Shown here one piece after another: positions 30,619-39,442 of a stretch of 64,000 bases of DNA. A program made the translations under genes and the position numbers. Source of the DNA: Longibacter salinarum (GTDB lineage Bacteria > Bacteroidota > Rhodothermia > Rhodothermales > Salinibacteraceae); NCBI RefSeq assembly GCF_002554795.1, contig NZ_PDEQ01000001.1, positions 744,001 to 808,000 on the forward strand, read 5' to 3'. The notes under the pieces are model-generated. The model saw only the letters and a program-made list of their open reading frames with translations, made no database searches and was not told the DNA's origin. How positions within the stretch are numbered: position 1 is the first letter of the stretch; the number at the start of each line of letters is the position of its first letter.

Positions 30619-32823
30619 CTACGTCTCGGGTTGGGACACGAGAACGAGTGTACTTCGTCCGGCCATGGGGTAGCGACTTACCTCTTCCAGGCGAGGCGCA
30701 TCCCCGATCGCGTACAGGTCGGAGGGGCTGGGCCGGGCCGTATCCGCTACTCGGTGCCAGCATGCACCCGTCGGTGGGTGGGGCAGCAACACATTCGCCG
30801 ATTCGGGCCCGGCGTGAAATACGGCGACGAGATCCGGACCTTGGGGATCGCGGATATGCATTCCAAGCGTCCGGGCGTTTGGATCGTGCCAATTTACCGT
30901 CCGCCCGCGAGCATCAAACCACTCGACGTCTTGAGAGCTGTAGGATCGTCCGGCGCGAAGCATGGGCAGTTGCTTGCGAAGACGAATCGCTTTCCGCGTG
31001 AACTGGACGAGATCGTCGTACGCCTCGCGCCGTTGCCAATCGAACCAGCTAGTCTCGTTATCCTGGCAATATGCGTTGTTGTTTCCGCGCTGCGTCCGGC
31101 GAAATTCATCTCCCCCAAGAAGCATTGGTACCCCTCGCGAGAGTAGCAGCGTGAGAAGCATGTTGCGAACCTGCCGATTCCTCGTACGCTCGATCAGAGG
31201 GTCGTCGGAGGGGCCTTCTACACCGTAATTATTGCTGTAGTTGGCATCCGTGCCATCCCGATTGTTCTCGCCATTCGCCTCGTTGTGCTTGTGGTTGTAG
31301 CTCACGAGGTCGTTCAGCGTAAATCCGTCGTGGCTGGCGATGTAGTTGACGCTCGAATGGGGACCTCGGCCGGACGATGCATACAGGTCGGCACTACCGC
31401 CCAATCGACTTGCAAGATCGCTCACAAGGCCTGCGTCACCTCGCCAAAAGCGCCGCACGGTATCGCGATACGGCCCGTTCCACTCCGCCCACCGGTCGCG
31501 CGAGAACGAGCCGACCTGGTACGCCCCAGCCGCATCCCAGGCTTCCGCGATGATCTTCACATCGCGCAAAATGGGGTCCTCGGCGATGCGCTCCGTCAGC
31601 GGGGGATCCGCGAGGAGGCTTCCATCCTGGTCCCGGCCGAGAACGGAGGCGAGGTCAAATCGGAAGCCATCCACATGCATCTCCATGACCCAGTATCGTA
31701 GCGAATCAAGGATGAGATCACGCACGACGGGATGATCGGCTTTGACCGTGTTGCCGGTCCCCGTAAAGTCACGGTACCATTGTCGGTCCTCCTCAAGCAG
31801 ATAGTAAATCGAGTTTTCCAGCCCACGCCACGAGAACGTCGGACCGAGGTGATTCCCTTCCCCGGTATGATTAAACACGACATCCAGAATCACCTCGATA
31901 CCGGCAGCGTGCAGGGCATGAACCATCTGCTTAAACTCCAGCACCTGCTCGCCGCTCGTACCCGCACTGGAGTAGCGGCCTTCCGGCGCCATAAACGCAG
32001 CTGGATTGTATCCCCAGTAATTGGTGAGCGGCTCTCCGGTCACCGGATTCGCCCGAGTCAACTCCCGGGGGTTGAACGCCTGTACTGGAAGGAACTCGAC
32101 CGCTGTAACGCCGAGCGACTGCAGATATGGAATCTTTTCAATGATACCGCGATAGGTGCCCGGATTGGCGACCCCACTCGACGCGTGTTGCGTAAAACCA
32201 CGCACGTGGATCTCATAGATGATCGTGTCCGACCACGGGTGACGAAGTAGCGTATCACCTTGCCAGTCAAAGTGCTCTCCTGTGATGACGCACTTCGGGG
32301 TTTCGGCGGCGTTATCGTGCTCGTCTGCGTCCCATCCCCCGCCTTCGTCGGATCGGTGGAATCCGCGCGCCTTCTGAAAGTCCCAGTTTTCCGTGCCAGC
32401 GATCGCCCGCGCATATGGGTCGATGAGAAGCTTGTGCGGGTTGAACCGGTGTCCACGCCCGGGGGCCTGAGGCCCGTCCACGCGATACCCGTACAACGTT
32501 CCCGGAGCCAGCCCCTCGACCCAGACGTGCCAGATATCACCGGTCCGGTTGGCCGTTGGATCGAGCCCGATGACCTGTGACGGCTCTCCATGCAAGGGCT
32601 TCTCATAAATCTCCAGCCAGACCTGCGTAGCATGACGGCTGAAGAGAGCGAAATTGACGCCTCCATCTCGGATTTCGGTACCCAGTGGAAGTGGCACGCC
32701 GACGCGAACGCTACCGGTTTCGAGAAGTCCCTCCGCAAATGCCCGGTAGCCGTGCCCTCGCTCTTTGCGGGCACGTTCAACGGCAGCAACGAATTCAGCT
32801 GAATCGTTCGATTCGGTAGACAT
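30619..32823 (-). CDS. glgX: Glycogen debranching enzyme GlgX
   Basis: A GH13 isoamylase-type enzyme of 734 residues that cleaves alpha-1,6 branches of glycogen or limit dextrin. The N-terminal carbohydrate-binding/isoamylase domain begins at about residue 40 (PLPLGTEIRDGGVNFALFSRHATQVWLEIYEKP). The barrel contains LDVVFNHTGEGN, DGFRFDLASVLGRD with the nucleophile Asp, KIIAEAWDAAGAY with the acid Glu, and IASHDGFTLNDLV with the transition-state Asp. All catalytic residues are kept. I chose ATG 32821-32823 (MSTESNDSAEFV); 36 residues upstream are unlike the family. Confidence 0.95.
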   Translation of the reverse strand: MSTESNDSAEFVAAVERARKERGHGYRAFAEGLLETGSVRVGVPLPLGTEIRDGGVNFALFSRHATQVWLEIYEKPLHGEPSQVIGLDPTANRTGDIWHVWVEGLAPGTLYGYRVDGPQAPGRGHRFNPHKLLIDPYARAIAGTENWDFQKARGFHRSDEGGGWDADEHDNAAETPKCVITGEHFDWQGDTLLRHPWSDTIIYEIHVRGFTQHASSGVANPGTYRGIIEKIPYLQSLGVTAVEFLPVQAFNPRELTRANPVTGEPLTNYWGYNPAAFMAPEGRYSSAGTSGEQVLEFKQMVHALHAAGIEVILDVVFNHTGEGNHLGPTFSWRGLENSIYYLLEEDRQWYRDFTGTGNTVKADHPVVRDLILDSLRYWVMEMHVDGFRFDLASVLGRDQDGSLLADPPLTERIAEDPILRDVKIIAEAWDAAGAYQVGSFSRDRWAEWNGPYRDTVRRFWRGDAGLVSDLASRLGGSADLYASSGRGPHSSVNYIASHDGFTLNDLVSYNHKHNEANGENNRDGTDANYSNNYGVEGPSDDPLIERTRNRQVRNMLLTLLLSRGVPMLLGGDEFRRTQRGNNNAYCQDNETSWFDWQRREAYDDLVQFTRKAIRLRKQLPMLRAGRSYSSQDVEWFDARGRTVNWHDPNARTLGMHIRDPQGPDLVAVFHAGPESANVLLPHPPTGACWHRVADTARPSPSDLYAIGDAPRLEEVSRYPMAGRSTLVLVSQPET

Positions 32824-33082
32824 GATAGGTAAGCTATTTCCCCGTTCGCGACAACGACCACAAACAGCGGCGGCGCCCTCCGAACGACCCAGGCCCGAAA
32901 GCCAGGATCGCCACGTAGAAGGACGCCGCAATATACGCTATGTACGGGAGAAATGTGCGTTACGCCTCTCTCCAGTTACGCAACGCACGTCACCCCACGA
33001 AGGAGCGTAGACGCTGTAGCCCGCCAGGAACGGCCGGCATAGGGAGAATCAAAGTTATTCATTCGGCACACTTGGATGTCTA

Positions 33083-35458
33083 TCATGCTTCGATGATGCT
33101 GATAATCAGACGCGTTGTCCGATCAATTTCGACGATGCGTTCAACCAGTGTTTCTGCTGCTACGGGTGCAATCAATCCTTGCCGTTTGCGATAAATGATG
33201 TCCAGTCGGGCCTCCTCAAGATCCACGAGGAAACTGCGAAGGACTTCGGCTTTTGCTGTGGCCGTCGGCGCATTTTTCAAAACATCCGGGAGTGATCCTG
33301 CCGTTACCGAGTCTGTAACCGAAGCTTGACTGTCCAGCGGGGCGGACACGGAAGTGCTGCTTGACGTTGTGCTGGTTGTGTCCGGCTCCGCCTCCCCGGT
33401 GCTGTCCACCGAATCCGGTGCCTGTGACTGGATCACATCGGCAGACAACGGCGGCGCAGGTTCCGTAAGGGAGAGACGCTCAAGGTAAGATGCCAGCCCC
33501 TTCCGTTGACGCTTGTACAGCGGACGAAGCAGGCTTGACAGGGCATCTCGGTCCCGGCGAACGAACACCGGAATCTCATCGAGTGGTGCTTTCACGTCCA
33601 ACTCCATGTCGCCGGGATACACGTCCTGGCTCCACAGGTGCATCCACTCTCCCGGGGGGAGATAAACGCGTCGCGCCGTCGTACTATCCGTAATCGGTGC
33701 CACAAGTACATCGGGCCCCAGAAAATACTGATCTTCCCGATCCGTACGGTTCGCTGAACGCGGGACTTCCAGCATCAGCGGTCGCATGACGGGAGTGCCC
33801 GTTTCTTTCGCCGTCTTGTACTGATGCCAGAGATATGTGCTCAGGGACGAATGCAGTCGCGAGTAGCGGCGAATGATCGACGCCATTTCGGGGTCGGCCA
33901 ACCAGGACTCGACGCCATACGAAGCGTCGAGATGCATGGACGGCGTGAACGCCTGAAATTGAATCCATCGGGCGAGCGCGGATCGATGGACCGTCGTCGA
34001 ATCCGTCGTCGGCGTGGCGGTCCACAGGGGAACGCCAGCAAAGCCAGCGCTCTGAGCACTGATCACAGCAGCCGGTAGTCCGGTCGTCGAGTCAAAATCT
34101 GCTGTCCATCCCTTCGACTGCACTAAGCTCAACGCTCTGGATGCGCCGGCATCAACGGCACGACCGGCGATGACAGGATGCTTCATTCCGGCGTCCTTAA
34201 ATGCTTTTCTCGTACCATGGACATAGCGTTGGCGCCACGTTCGCCAGAGGCTCGACTCGGCTTCTCCGCCGTGATACAGTCCGCTGTCCGGCAATGCCAC
34301 CTCGTTGAGAATCACACCATTCACGTCTGCGCGGGCAAGTTGGGCGACGTGATTCGTCCACCAGGACTCGGACTCGGGATGCGTGAAGTCGACGAGAGCA
34401 ACACGGGCCGAGTCGCGATCGATGGTAGACGAGTCGTCACGCTGTGGTCGAGACGGCGATGGCATCATCAGGGGTGCCCCGGTGCTATCCGCCACCAGGA
34501 GTTGGCGGGCGGCCGCTTCTTCGAACGCGGACGTCCCGGATCGAACGAGCGGCCACACATCGGCCATCACGTTGAAACCCGCATCACGGAGCTCCGCTAC
34601 GGCCATAGCCGTCGAGGCACCTGTGTCCCGCGTCGACGTGAGCTGAGCGGAAGACGTCGCCCATGCTTCATCGACAACATACGCAGACGAAGCGACGTCA
34701 TACGCGCGGAGAAGCCGAGTGTCACGCTCAATTTTGTCCAGAGCGTCGAGGTTGTGGCGATGCTTCCAGACGCCGTACTGAGCCGTCGGCGGCAGCCCCA
34801 TCCGTCCGGTGGACTCCGTAAATCGAGCAATGATTTCTGCCGGCTCGGGCGCGGTGTAAAAGTGGAATGTCACCGTCGCGCCCTCCGCCCAGAAGGTGAA
34901 CAGGTCGGTCGATGTGCCGAAGTCGAGGCGGAAGTCTCCTTCGGTTGGGAGATAGACACCGTAGCCTCGACTACTGAGCGCAAACGGGACCACACTCGAA
35001 TCCCGACGGCTGTCGAGCGCCGTACCTCGTCGGTCGAGCCTCGCGGATCCTGTAGCATGGCTGTAAAACCGCTCGTCGTCCGACGGGACGAAACCGTATC
35101 CGATTCGCTCGATGTCGGGCGGTCCTTCAATCGTAACCTTGCTCACCGTCTGGCCCGTCTCCACGCTGATGCGCAGAGGCGTGCCCCGCTCCGTCAGCGC
35201 AGCATAGACACCGGGCTTGCCATCTACAGCGTCCGCGCTTACGACGCGTTCCCAGACTCCACTGAAGTAGAGGCCAAATGAGGCAGACTTGTTTGCCCGC
35301 GGCGGGGCTCCGATAACAGACCGCGTATTGTCATCGAGCTTCAGGTTGATGCGAAATGGCTCCGGGTCGATAGAGACTGGTTGTGCAGTAACCGGCAGCA
35401 TCGCCAGAGCGAGAACGGCTGCAGCAGAAATACCAGACCGAATGAAGGCGCGAAGCAT
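33083..35458 (-). CDS. Exported glycoside hydrolase family 31-like protein, altered nucleophile motif
   Basis: A 791-residue secreted protein with signal peptide MLRAFIRSGISAAAVLALAMLPVTAQ. Family 31 features are RIGYGFVPSDDERFYSHATGSARLDRRGTALD, GLPPTAQYGVWKHRH and the end-of-barrel block MRPLMLEVPRSANRTDREDQYFLGPDVLVAPI followed by VYLPPGEWMHLWSQ. The catalytic nucleophile region (usually DMNE or similar) reads VILNE at about 382-386, so the Asp is Ile. A late WTADFDS may retain the acid/base Asp. A Ser/Thr-rich linker and a helical C-terminal region of about 60 residues follow. Probably an atypical or non-hydrolytic homologue. The two Met codons at the start differ by one residue. Confidence 0.83.
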   Translation of the reverse strand: MLRAFIRSGISAAAVLALAMLPVTAQPVSIDPEPFRINLKLDDNTRSVIGAPPRANKSASFGLYFSGVWERVVSADAVDGKPGVYAALTERGTPLRISVETGQTVSKVTIEGPPDIERIGYGFVPSDDERFYSHATGSARLDRRGTALDSRRDSSVVPFALSSRGYGVYLPTEGDFRLDFGTSTDLFTFWAEGATVTFHFYTAPEPAEIIARFTESTGRMGLPPTAQYGVWKHRHNLDALDKIERDTRLLRAYDVASSAYVVDEAWATSSAQLTSTRDTGASTAMAVAELRDAGFNVMADVWPLVRSGTSAFEEAAARQLLVADSTGAPLMMPSPSRPQRDDSSTIDRDSARVALVDFTHPESESWWTNHVAQLARADVNGVILNEVALPDSGLYHGGEAESSLWRTWRQRYVHGTRKAFKDAGMKHPVIAGRAVDAGASRALSLVQSKGWTADFDSTTGLPAAVISAQSAGFAGVPLWTATPTTDSTTVHRSALARWIQFQAFTPSMHLDASYGVESWLADPEMASIIRRYSRLHSSLSTYLWHQYKTAKETGTPVMRPLMLEVPRSANRTDREDQYFLGPDVLVAPITDSTTARRVYLPPGEWMHLWSQDVYPGDMELDVKAPLDEIPVFVRRDRDALSSLLRPLYKRQRKGLASYLERLSLTEPAPPLSADVIQSQAPDSVDSTGEAEPDTTSTTSSSTSVSAPLDSQASVTDSVTAGSLPDVLKNAPTATAKAEVLRSFLVDLEEARLDIIYRKRQGLIAPVAAETLVERIVEIDRTTRLIISIIEA

Positions 35459-35554
35459 CATCCAAGGCAACAGGCACAGGAAAGGGGAAGAGTCATTCCC
35501 CCGGCGGATAATCTCACGATCACCGATCAGATCCTGCAAGCATAGGACGGCAGA

Positions 35555-36275: not shown

Positions 36276-38438
36276 ATGGCCTCACTTACCTCGACGCTAA
36301 CAGCCTACGCGACCGCTCCATGGCGACGGATGCGGTCGGTCGATCGCGGAATCGTGGCGCGAGATGCGGTGTCCGGTCTCACACTGGCCGTGGTGCTCCT
36401 TCCACAGGCCATTGCGTTCGCAATCCTTGCCGGACTTCCGGCCGAGACGGGCCTGGTCACGGCGGTGATCGGAGCGATCGTGGGCGCTCTCTGGGGATCC
36501 TCTGTGCTCGTGCATACGGGTCCAACATCTGCCGTCTCGCTGCTCGTTATGTCGTCAGTCGCGGCTACCGCCCCGGCAGATCCCTCGGCCATGGTCGTCG
36601 TCGCCGGACTTCTTGCCGTGATGGCCGGCACCGTACAGGTCATCCTTGGCGTCGCGAGGCTCGGTGTGCTCGTGACATTCGTCTCGGATGCCGTTATCGT
36701 TGGCTTCGCCGCCGGCGCGGGAATCCAGATTGCTGTGAGTGAGTTGCGACATGTCCTCCGCGTGGACGTCGCCGCCCGGGCGCTCTGGCCACGACTGGAG
36801 GCGATTCTGCAGCAACTACCTGACGTTCACCTTCCATCACTGGTCATCGGAACGGCGACAATAGCTCTTCTTGTCGGCATTCGTATGATTCGGCGATCAT
36901 GGCCCGCCACGCTTCTCGCCCTGCTCGCCACGTCGGCCCTAGCCGCCCTCCTCGGCCCCTCACAGCTTGGACTCAACGTCATCGGCGCCCTCCCGACGGA
37001 TCTGCCCCGACCTCAGTCCCTTCCCATCTTTGACGGGGCTCTCATCTCTTCCCTCGCCACCGGGGCACTCGCAATCGCTTCCATCGGCCTGATTCAAACG
37101 ATGGCGGTCGCCCGCTCCTTACCGAATCCCGGCGGTGAACGACTCGACGCCAACCAAGAGTTCGTGGGACAGGGGCTCGCCAATATCGTCGCCGGCTGGT
37201 TCTCCGGCTTCTCGGTTTCGGGCTCCTTCTCTCGGTCGGCCGTTGCAGCGGAGACTGGCGCCCGCACTCCCCTCGCTGCCGTCATCTCCGGTGCATTCGT
37301 GCTGGCGTTCATGCTGCTATTCGGCCCACTCGGTGCTTACCTGCCACGGGCCGCCCTTGCAGGCATCCTCATCGTCGTCGCGATCAAAATGATCGACCTC
37401 GATCGGATCCGCCAGGTCGTCCGCAGCAGCCGGGGAGAGTCCGTGGTGATGAGCGTCACGTTTCTCGGAACGCTCTTCCTTCCCATCGACGTCGCTGTGC
37501 TTGCAGGCATTCTCACGGCACTCGGCCACTACGTCTTGCGAACGAGTGCTCCCGATGTCGTACCCGTCCGGCCGGATGAATGCTTTCGCCACTTCGTTCG
37601 ACACTCGCCGCAGGATCCATGCACCCAGCTCGCGATCTTCGACATTCGCGGGGACCTGTATTTTGGCGCAACCTCACACGTAGAAGATACGCTCCTCTCG
37701 CACTGCGACGACCACCCAGACCAGCGATTTCTGCTTCTTCGAATGCAGGGGGTCAATCGAATCGACGTAAGTGGCGTGCGGATGCTGGAGCGACTGGCCG
37801 AGGATCGGCGTCGTCACGTCGGCGATCTCTACCTCACCCGTATCCAGCGCCCGGTTCTCCGCTTCATGATCAGCACGCGATTCCACGAGACGCTCGGTCG
37901 CGACCACTTCCTGAACGTAGATACAGCCGTCGACACGTTATTTCACCACGTGCTCGACCCAGCAGTCTGCGTGTACGAATGTCGCATGCGCGCCTTTCGA
38001 GAGTGTCAGACGATTCCTCGCCCGGACATCCCGCTCCATCTGCGCCCCGCTGCACACGTGCCCACCGACGATGAAGTCACCGTCGAGACCATCGACGCGG
38101 TCGATCTATGGCAGGAGTTGCATGGACATGGGATCGAGCCCCGCATCATTGATGTCCGCGAGCCGCGCGAATTTGCTCGTGGCCACATTCCTGGTTCGGA
38201 AAACATTCCGTATCTCAACCTTATTGCCGATCCCTCATGCGCAATGGACGGCACGGATCGCCCCATCGTTATCGTCTGCCGCGGTGGCCGTCGCAGTCGT
38301 AGCGCGGGCGTGCATATCGCACCGATCCACGACCGGCAGGTCCGTGTGCTGAAAGGAGGACTTCTTTCCTGGGAATCGGCGGATCTACTTACGGCCATGG
38401 GCACCCCATCACATTCAAAAACAATTGTACCGGGTTGA
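36276..38438 (+). CDS. SulP permease-STAS-rhodanese fusion protein
   Basis: A 720-residue three-part protein. Residues 1-450 form a SulP membrane domain, with DAVSGLTLAVVLLPQAIAFAILAGLPAETGL and EFVGQGLANIVAGWFSGFSVSGSFSRSAVAAETGART. Residues about 465-575 form a STAS domain (LAIFDIRGDLYFGATSHVED, then LRMQGVNRIDVSGVRMLERL). Residues about 610-715 form a rhodanese domain, RIIDVREPREFARGHIPGSENIPY, with catalytic Cys668 in IVIVCRGGRRSRS. It may couple anion import to sulfane-sulfur transfer or sensing. I chose ATG 36276 (MASLTSTLTAYATAPWRRM). Its stop lies 5 bp before the GlpX-like ATG, so the two genes are probably translated together. Confidence 0.92.
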   Translation: MASLTSTLTAYATAPWRRMRSVDRGIVARDAVSGLTLAVVLLPQAIAFAILAGLPAETGLVTAVIGAIVGALWGSSVLVHTGPTSAVSLLVMSSVAATAPADPSAMVVVAGLLAVMAGTVQVILGVARLGVLVTFVSDAVIVGFAAGAGIQIAVSELRHVLRVDVAARALWPRLEAILQQLPDVHLPSLVIGTATIALLVGIRMIRRSWPATLLALLATSALAALLGPSQLGLNVIGALPTDLPRPQSLPIFDGALISSLATGALAIASIGLIQTMAVARSLPNPGGERLDANQEFVGQGLANIVAGWFSGFSVSGSFSRSAVAAETGARTPLAAVISGAFVLAFMLLFGPLGAYLPRAALAGILIVVAIKMIDLDRIRQVVRSSRGESVVMSVTFLGTLFLPIDVAVLAGILTALGHYVLRTSAPDVVPVRPDECFRHFVRHSPQDPCTQLAIFDIRGDLYFGATSHVEDTLLSHCDDHPDQRFLLLRMQGVNRIDVSGVRMLERLAEDRRRHVGDLYLTRIQRPVLRFMISTRFHETLGRDHFLNVDTAVDTLFHHVLDPAVCVYECRMRAFRECQTIPRPDIPLHLRPAAHVPTDDEVTVETIDAVDLWQELHGHGIEPRIIDVREPREFARGHIPGSENIPYLNLIADPSCAMDGTDRPIVIVCRGGRRSRSAGVHIAPIHDRQVRVLKGGLLSWESADLLTAMGTPSHSKTIVPG

Positions 38439-38443
38439 CACGG

Positions 38444-39442
38444 ATGGATACCCGTAATCTTGGACTGGACCTCGTGCGCATCACCGAAGCGGCTGCTATC
38501 GCCGCCGGACGGCACATGGGCTTTGGGGATGCCATTCGGCCCGACGGTGACGCGACCACCGCAATGCGGCGTGAGTTGAATACGCTGCCCGTAGACGGGC
38601 GGATTGTTCTTGGAGAACATCGAGAACTCAAGTCGGATCGTATGCTCCGGCATGGCGATGCCGTCGGAACGGGTCACGGCGATGCCGTGGATCTGGTCGT
38701 CGATCCGGTGGATGGCCGCAATTTGCTTGCACGCGGACTGCCGGGGGCTATTTCCGTGATCGCAGCCGCTCCTCGCGGTTCGATGTGGGCACCGGAACGC
38801 GCCGTCTATATGGAAAAGTTGGTCGTCGATCGGCACGCTGCATCGGCCATCGTTCCGGAATGCCTGGACGCGCCGGCGGCGTGGACGCTATCCCTCCTCG
38901 CGCGGGTCAAAGAAAAAGCCGTCCGCGACCTGGTCATTTTCGTTCTCGACCGACCGCGACACGCCGACCTCATCGACGAAATTCGTGCAGCCGGTGCGCG
39001 TGTGATGCTTCAGGCGGAAGGCGATGTCGCGGGCGCTCTCCTTGCCGCGTCGCCACGTCACCCAGGCGTTGACGCGCTCATGGACATCGGCGGGATCCCG
39101 GAAGGCGTCATCGCCGCATGTGCGGTACGGGCGCTCGGTGGAGCGATGCTCGGCCGCCTCGCCCCTCAGTCGCAGAAGGAACGGAGCGACCTGCGAACGT
39201 CCGGTCTCGATGAGTCAGCTATCCTGACCGCCTCCGACCTCGTCTCCGGTACGGACCTTTACTTCAGCGCGACCGGCGTGACGGACGGCCCCGTACTCCG
39301 CGGCGTGCACTACCACGGGCAACGTGCAGAAACGCACTCGCTCGTTCTACGGGCAGAAACCCGAACGCGGCGCACAATTCAGGCAGAACACCTGCTGGAC
39401 GAGAATGCAGACCCAACGTGGCTCGGTCACGATACGAATTGA
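38444..39442 (+). CDS. Divergent GlpX-type fructose-1,6-bisphosphatase-like phosphatase
   Basis: A 332-residue protein of the GlpX (class II FBPase) family, with ITEAAAIAAGRHMGFGD, IVLGEHRELKSDRML, the metal-site motif VVDPVDGRN (D87, D90) and the late GGIPEGVIAACAVRALGGAML. Differences from typical GlpX: the lysine of GRGDK is Ala, the GEGExDEAPML block is altered, and the residue after DG, usually Thr, is Arg92. The fold family also includes sulfur-nucleotide and inositol phosphatases, so the substrate could differ from fructose-1,6-bisphosphate. ATG 38444 is preferred over an overlapping TTG at 38435. It follows the SulP-rhodanese fusion by 5 bp. Confidence 0.8.
   Translation: MDTRNLGLDLVRITEAAAIAAGRHMGFGDAIRPDGDATTAMRRELNTLPVDGRIVLGEHRELKSDRMLRHGDAVGTGHGDAVDLVVDPVDGRNLLARGLPGAISVIAAAPRGSMWAPERAVYMEKLVVDRHAASAIVPECLDAPAAWTLSLLARVKEKAVRDLVIFVLDRPRHADLIDEIRAAGARVMLQAEGDVAGALLAASPRHPGVDALMDIGGIPEGVIAACAVRALGGAMLGRLAPQSQKERSDLRTSGLDESAILTASDLVSGTDLYFSATGVTDGPVLRGVHYHGQRAETHSLVLRAETRTRRTIQAEHLLDENADPTWLGHDTN

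Follow-up and report, generated by a model that had tools for sequence, protein, structure and literature searches.

The window analyzed here is a stretch of 64,000 nucleotides from Longibacter salinarum (contig NZ_PDEQ01000001.1, positions 744,001 to 808,000), and our subject is a pair of genes within it, which encode a SulP transporter with STAS and rhodanese domains and a relative of the class II fructose-1,6-bisphosphatase (FBPase) GlpX. The features of both genes are listed in Table 1. An initial annotation had described a 720-residue transporter with a C-terminal rhodanese domain that keeps its catalytic Cys668, and a stop codon 5 bp from the next ATG. The Pfam domains and the CRGGRRS loop confirmed the former, and the 5 bases between the stop (38438) and the ATG (38444) confirmed the latter. 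A scan for promoters and terminators gave counts near chance.

Table 1. Features of the fusion gene and the GlpX-like gene, in positions of the window
Feature	Position	Strand	Basis
SulP-STAS-rhodanese fusion gene, 720 aa, ATG start	36276..38438	+	Open reading frame and Pfam
SulP membrane domain PF00916, residues 29-395, SFSRSA at 317-322	36360..37460	+	Pfam, alignment
Cys449, start of STAS region	37620..37622	+	Cys in 62/64 aligned fusions, 2 gaps
STAS domain PF01740, residues 453-551	37632..37928	+	Pfam
Cys linker C565-x3-C569-x7-C577, STAS/rhodanese junction	37968..38006	+	C565 64/64, C569 61/64, C577 64/64
Rhodanese domain PF00581, residues 610-701	38103..38378	+	Pfam
Rhodanese catalytic Cys668 in CRGGRRS loop	38277..38279	+	Cys in 63/64 fusions
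GlpX-like protein, 332 aa, class II FBPase homologue, probably without catalysis	38444..39442	+	Pfam, NCBIfam, alignment
Ala30 replacing GDK lysine	38531..38533	+	Lys in 0/72 family members
GEHREL replacing GEGEKD; E51 retained, changes at E53 and D55 (M. tuberculosis numbering)	38612..38629	+	Alignment
Arg92 at catalytic Thr (Thr84 of M. tuberculosis GlpX)	38717..38719	+	Alignment
Family-specific PEC insertion with Cys140	38855..38863	+	Cys in 71/72 family, 0/48 canonical
Family-specific Trp147-Thr148	38882..38887	+	Trp 72/72, Thr 71/72

In the fusion protein, PF00916 scored 282 bits and STAS 45.8 bits, both above their cut-offs, and PF00581 scored 57.8 bits. The NCBIfam sulfate permease model TIGR00815 reached 315.3, below its cut-off of 380.45, and the BicA model 146.9, far below its cut-off of 880. 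Because NCBIfam labels TIGR00815 a subfamily model, the assignment to the SulP family rests on Pfam. The best match in the PDB was the chloroplast sulfate transporter 4.1 (2.2e-57). The GlpX-like protein scored 369 bits with PF03320 and 278.1 with TIGR00330 (“class II fructose-bisphosphatase”), above the cut-off of 259.3. FBPase_glpX was its sole Pfam match at E ≤ 0.001, with no PII-like fold among the matches, and at the same E value TIGR00330 alone was listed from NCBIfam, with no match to CysQ or HAL2. Its closest solved relative is M. tuberculosis GlpX.

To describe the active site, we aligned 72 members of the GlpX-like family and 48 canonical-type proteins to M. tuberculosis GlpX, whose numbering is used throughout for these residues. 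According to the available text of PMC5892879 and PMC10289334, the Thr90-Asp33 (Thr84-Asp27) contact is required for class II FBPase catalysis, and GlpX enzymes with the T84A and T89A substitutions are inactive; the available text of PMC10289334 also describes E. coli GlpX D61A as essentially inactive. The results showed that the Thr84-Asp27 pair is broken in 71 of the 72 family members and intact in all 48 canonical proteins, the sole member that keeps both residues being L146. Taken singly, Thr84 is kept in 37/72 (the others have Arg in 28, Leu in 5, Gln in 1 and Val in 1) and Asp27 in 25/72, whereas each is present in 48/48 canonical proteins. Loss of the threonine as a universal mark of the family was dropped once a second order of Chloroflexota had been added, and since 37 members keep the residue, the claim is restated as loss of the Thr-Asp pair.

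The surrounding motifs have also changed. The lysine of the GDK motif, whose role is absent from the available text of the two papers, occurs in none of the 72 proteins (canonical proteins have Lys in 46 and Arg in 2), and the exact GEGEKD block in none of the 72 versus 46 of 48. In the aligned columns, D55 and E53 are each kept in 1/72, the block having also changed in length. At the position of E. coli Asp61, which is Asp in 48/48 canonical proteins, the window protein has Leu62 followed by Lys63. The alanine in place of the GDK lysine, the altered GEGE block and Arg92, all reported by the initial annotation, were thus upheld against M. tuberculosis GlpX and the 48 canonical proteins.

The window protein belongs to the same family as the class II FBPases of known structure (PF03320 and TIGR00330; M. 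tuberculosis 6ayy, E. coli 3d1r and F. tularensis 7js3), and about half of its residues are identical to those of canonical GlpX relatives (49% and 50.6%). It retains the carboxylates E51, D79, D82 and E208 and the substrate-pocket residues Y114, R159, R161 and D183; unlike GlpX, it has Arg for Thr84, Leu for D55, Ala for the GDK lysine and Arg for E53, it carries the PEC insertion with Cys140, and it is encoded beside a SulP-rhodanese fusion. Most of these residues are kept across the family as well: D79, Y114 and R161, like the nearby K117, in 72/72, D183 in 71/72, D82 as 70 Asp and 2 Glu, and R159 as 71 Arg and 1 Lys.

The 72 proteins fall into two subfamilies of 36. In subfamily I, which includes the window protein, the threonine is replaced by Arg, Leu, Gln or Val in 35/36 and E208 is kept in 36/36. 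In subfamily II, the threonine is kept in 36/36, the D27 position is His in 36/36, and the E208 position is Gln in 32 (Glu in 3, and uncovered in 1). This clean split, with Thr lost on one side and Asp and mostly Glu exchanged for His and Gln on the other, makes the family a good case for studying loss of catalysis with the pocket kept.

Both proteins also have newly conserved residues. The three-residue insertion of the GlpX-like family is mostly PEC (Pro in 67, Glu in 67 and Cys in 71 of 72), and 47/48 canonical proteins are gapped there. One further protein, L154, carries an equally long insertion that lacks the cysteine, together with all ten active-site residues named in the literature, and it branches just outside the family in both trees, as would a transitional form. 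In the fusion, all four cysteines on the STAS side occur together in none of 30 other aligned SulP sequences from relatives of the window. We also observed the same four cysteines in 4/4 plasmid SulP proteins without rhodanese (from Paracoccus, Leisingera, Sulfitobacter and Cupriavidus; L040-L043), in the pattern CPQ[LI] ... C-x2-C-x7-C, which may form a metal or redox site.

The family was reached through the DNA pattern VDP.DGRN[LF], which in the species collection gave 39 stretches, one of which encodes a GlpX relative (L060, in a Chloroflexales metagenome-assembled genome). This pattern overlooks most of the family because it demands an Asn after the Arg. L060 is 59% identical to the window GlpX-like protein and lies directly 3' of a SulP-STAS-rhodanese gene. 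Of the three GlpX genes in its genome, one is canonical, and the two altered ones each stand behind a fusion. The second copy of the pair in that genome (L151) has Val where the catalytic Thr would be and DA instead of DP, and it stands just downstream of another SulP gene, one without a rhodanese match.

Protein searches covered the phylum of the window (Bacteroidota), Chloroflexota and plasmids. The family was recovered by searching 400 genomes of Chloroflexota, the phylum of L060, where 34 matches had at least 55% identity and the next step was at or below 52%. Among the matches, L154, which is 55% identical, has the ten literature residues and lacks both Cys140 and a SulP neighbor, was moved to the canonical set, to which L252 and L253 were likewise assigned. 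In the second order, reached from genome G607, 38/56 genomes had a GlpX-like protein at no less than 52% identity, the gene being partial in one of them. Across the three samples searched, 85 Chloroflexota genomes have a GlpX-like protein. Plasmids gave no GlpX match reaching 60% identity and, among the 30 matches listed, no full-length fusion; in one plasmid record, whose content was not inspected, the match spans 80% or more of the SulP query. When viral_contigs and genome_contigs were scanned with the GlpX-like protein, no relative appeared, the exact 8-residue patterns being too strict, and trial patterns on viral_contigs returned four GlpX genes with the catalytic Thr, or nothing. These four genes, on IMG/VR contigs (L045-L048; L045 and L046 are identical in protein), have the catalytic Thr and a GEGKKD block, and are possible auxiliary metabolic genes.

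The two genes are closely linked. In Chloroflexota, 68 loci allowed a judgment, and in 64 of them the fusion adjoins the GlpX-like gene. In the first round, the fusion directly preceded the GlpX-like gene in the same orientation at 29 of 33 loci, with gaps from a 26-base overlap to 204 bases and one of 439 bases (to an inferred start). In the four other genomes (G843, G758, G804 and G786), the fusion is on another draft contig or, in G786, 11.7 kb away. The second round comprised 38 family loci (36 from the second order and 2 from the first); a fusion was present in 35/35 with upstream DNA, three of these fusions being cut by the contig and that of L255 reading as two open reading frames, and the remaining 3 loci were left unjudged, with a contig edge 60-113 bases upstream. 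At four loci (L142, L147, L149 and L140), two tandem SulP-rhodanese fusions precede one GlpX-like gene, the first fusion of L140 being cut by the contig start. When the neighbors of 34 loci were clustered, no further gene was widely conserved beside the pair; the other large clusters were open reading frames on the opposite strand or in a shifted frame over the same two genes, and everything else occurred at no more than 6 loci.

The two genes also occur together. At the thresholds used, 32 of the 400 Chloroflexota genomes had both, 1 the fusion only (G515, cut by the contig), 0 the GlpX-like gene only and 367 neither (Fisher p = 1.7e-46). Among 82 genomes of one order, where partial genes were counted as present, 43 had both, 1 the GlpX-like gene only (G889), 1 the fusion only (G515) and 37 neither (p = 4.9e-21). 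These p values overstate independence because the genomes are related. A match in G597 (32%, starting in the SulP part and extending to residue 714, with two stops) was excluded from the fusion count. Five of the 32 carriers lie outside the 82-genome order; two of the five belong to the second order and three to neither one. Since there are carriers beyond one order and the window lies in another phylum, the pair persisted or moved jointly across wide distances, and its recurrence in two or more orders of Chloroflexota argues that its features are not due to chance. The possibility, raised initially, that the pairing is unique to this strain does not hold, given the 32 Chloroflexota genomes that share it.

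To examine selection, we calculated the ratio of nonsynonymous to synonymous substitution rates (dN/dS, NG86), which ranged from 0.022 to 0.224 across 14 pairs of close family members and from 0.012 to 0.111 across 8 canonical pairs. By this measure, the GlpX-like family is under purifying selection, constrained somewhat less than the canonical enzyme. The pairwise distances of the two proteins at 64 of the 72 loci were correlated (r = 0.89, uncorrected for shared descent); the partial L251 and the loci whose fusion stops before residue 690 were left out. In the first tree, the family together with L154 formed a split supported at 99/91, the 34 family proteins without L154 one at 100/98, and the window protein fell inside the Chloroflexota rows. 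In a larger quick tree, the 72 family proteins formed a clade (Shimodaira-Hasegawa-like approximate likelihood ratio test, 99), within which the position of the window protein was left undecided. Lateral transfer into the lineage of the window would be the simplest reading.

In the rest of the L. salinarum genome, the window gene is the single GlpX copy, and there are two class I FBPases, which scored 481.2 and 466.8 with NF006778 (cut-off 368) and sit 12 kb apart (408.9 kb and 421.3 kb on the same genome's contig C1). Thus, the proviso that the genome might have no other FBPase falls away. CysQ and HAL2, the 3'(2'),5'-bisphosphate nucleotidases, belong to the same wider phosphatase superfamily as GlpX, and CysQ-type enzymes share the threonine that GlpX requires. 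The genome encodes a HAL2-type enzyme of this kind elsewhere, a 3'-phosphoadenosine 5'-phosphate (PAP) phosphatase (L211; 335.9 bits, cut-off 267.05). With this enzyme and the class I FBPases, the cell need not rely on the GlpX-like protein for PAP removal or gluconeogenesis. The GlpX-like protein differs from CysQ and HAL2 in matching neither NCBIfam model, and its identity as a PAP phosphatase was rejected on this ground and on the presence of L211. With the threonine also absent, the phosphatase step in sulfur assimilation that had been proposed for the pair is not supported.

Within the phylum of the window, any GlpX match is rare (3/146 genomes of the same class and 5/394 of the phylum). 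Three of the four matches outside the window genome (L005, L006 and L008) have neither Arg at the Thr position nor a SulP gene within a few kb, and the fourth is a fragment (30%). L005 (genome G065, from the same family as the window genome) is a divergent GlpX on a very long branch, with DAT for DGT and GEGA for GEGE. Among the matches listed for 60 relatives, including the same-genus genome G442 (83% complete), the window's own fusion was the only match running from SulP into rhodanese.

The joint inheritance and the lost catalytic residues suggest that this GlpX look-alike is a transporter partner or sensor and not the enzyme named in databases. Judged from its sequence, the GlpX-like protein is best taken as a pseudo-phosphatase, one that would probably serve as a regulatory partner of the transporter and bind a sugar phosphate. 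We favor a ligand-sensing partner because the pocket is conserved, the catalytic pair is broken in two ways, and the gene is retained with one transporter. This proposal of a conserved two-protein module, in which a SulP-STAS-rhodanese anion transporter has a GlpX-fold pseudo-phosphatase as its cytosolic partner, seems to us to have an even chance of being correct. In such a module, the GlpX-like protein would bind but not hydrolyze a sugar phosphate such as fructose 1,6-bisphosphate or fructose 6-phosphate, and would dock on the STAS/rhodanese end of the transporter, so that the uptake of anions would follow the state of central carbon metabolism. A second input, from sulfane sulfur or redox state, is hinted at by the conserved Cys140 and by Cys668 of the rhodanese domain. 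A more specific and rather doubtful version has Cys668 hand sulfane sulfur to Cys140, or form a disulfide with it, while sugar-phosphate occupancy gates SulP. If the protein is a transporter subunit, it would show an FBPase fold turned sensor and provide a soluble partner for STAS-bearing SulP/SLC26 proteins; a sulfur-gated sensor would give the FBPase fold a new role in regulation and SulP/SLC26 transporters a new type of partner.

Several observations weigh against this interpretation. The threonine is present in 37/72 members, and L146 keeps all ten literature residues. The loss of D55 depends on the alignment, and we do not take it as a universal mark because 14 members, the window protein not among them, have an Asp one residue later. 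The pocket residues may be kept through the constraint of the fold alone. The co-occurrence and mirror-tree figures are non-independent, most of the genomes being related. An AlphaFold2 run on 5 sequences had a mean predicted local distance difference test score (pLDDT) of 39, and the model was not used. Finally, at the threshold used, no canonical GlpX is listed for 33 of the 38 GlpX-like carriers in the order of G607 or for 7 of the 44 in the first order.

This last point bears on the suggestion that the protein is an ordinary class II FBPase that tolerates the changes, as NCBIfam annotates it. The carriers without a listed canonical GlpX in the order of G607 speak for this suggestion, and the window protein does pass the TIGR00330 equivalog cut-off, as do 2 of 3 other family members scored; metabolic reconstructions may therefore count an enzyme that is absent. 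However, the catalytic residues are lost, the genome of the window has two class I FBPases, and 37 of the 44 carriers in the first order also list a canonical GlpX. On the class I enzymes and the residue losses we ruled this candidate out and consider it very unlikely. The initial view that the GlpX-like protein does not act as a fructose bisphosphatase is therefore very probably right, given the two class I FBPases and the loss of residues reported to be essential in class II enzymes. Less probable still is that the genes are decaying remnants carried along after lateral transfer, which we regard as hardly credible. Among the 394 genomes of the phylum, the altered protein does occur in the window genome only, and no fusion is among the matches listed for G442 of the same genus; however, the dN/dS values of the Chloroflexota family pairs indicate purifying selection and argue against decay there, the GlpX-like family has newly conserved residues, and the frames in the window are long and intact.

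A phosphatase with a changed mechanism, acting on a new substrate tied to the transported anion, such as another sugar bisphosphate or a sulfur nucleotide, is a possible alternative to the sensor, although not one we expect. The four carboxylates of the window protein would suit it, as would L146 with its ten residues, and the pattern of subfamily II, with the threonine kept, a fixed His at D27 and mostly Gln at E208, looks selected rather than decayed. Because half of the family keeps the threonine, some members may be active on another substrate, those of subfamily II above all. Against this, the threonine is replaced in 35/36 members of subfamily I, and GlpX enzymes with T84A or T89A are inactive according to PMC10289334; GEGEKD is found in no family member; and PAP can be handled by the HAL2-type phosphatase encoded elsewhere in the window genome. 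It is unlikely, in our judgment, that the two genes form an operon of pathway members without contact, in which SulP would bring in sulfate, thiosulfate or bicarbonate and the GlpX-like protein would do something unrelated. Adjacent same-strand genes often belong to one pathway, the SulP member BicA carries bicarbonate in the accounts available, and the available text of the Chloroflexus genome paper (PMC3150298) describes sulfate assimilation. A pathway role needs activity, yet the catalytic residues are lost, and the neighborhood holds no additional widely conserved gene.

The transporter partner we propose can be set beside known systems. To our knowledge, the nearest arrangement is that of SbtB acting on SbtA. 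There, a bicarbonate transporter is paired with a PII-like regulator, so that, in the source text available, the plan is like the one proposed here, a membrane anion transporter with a soluble partner that senses a small molecule; the transporter family and the sensor fold differ, and the likeness is one of arrangement only. SbtB is also described there as carrying a redox-sensitive loop. In the available literature, DauA with DctA exemplifies how a SulP protein can work through a partner, and a review states that SulP substrate predictions would gain strength with more characterized members. Like the SulP/SLC26 transporter AtSULTR4;1 (7lhv), the window fusion has PF00916 followed by STAS; unlike these transporters, it adds the C-terminal rhodanese domain and the four conserved cysteines around STAS. 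Two further SulP/SLC26 comparators, 6ki1 and 5da0, are presumably BicA and SLC26Dg, respectively.

We found no report of the SulP-rhodanese/GlpX-like pair among the titles and abstract beginnings listed from an open-access library, which makes this a weak negative. The main text of the C. aurantiacus genome paper (PMC3150298), as far as available, mentions neither a bisphosphatase nor a rhodanese and calls the PAP phosphatase unidentified.

Among canonical proteins of Chloroflexota, 16 (L088, L155, L157, L160-L170, L172 and L173) carry HGD where the substrate motif is otherwise DGD, and retain the Thr, the Lys and GEGEKD. Upstream of the pair in the window, on the minus strand at 30619-35539, there are two long open reading frames that, from their translations, we take to resemble a glycogen debranching enzyme and a GH31-type glycosidase.

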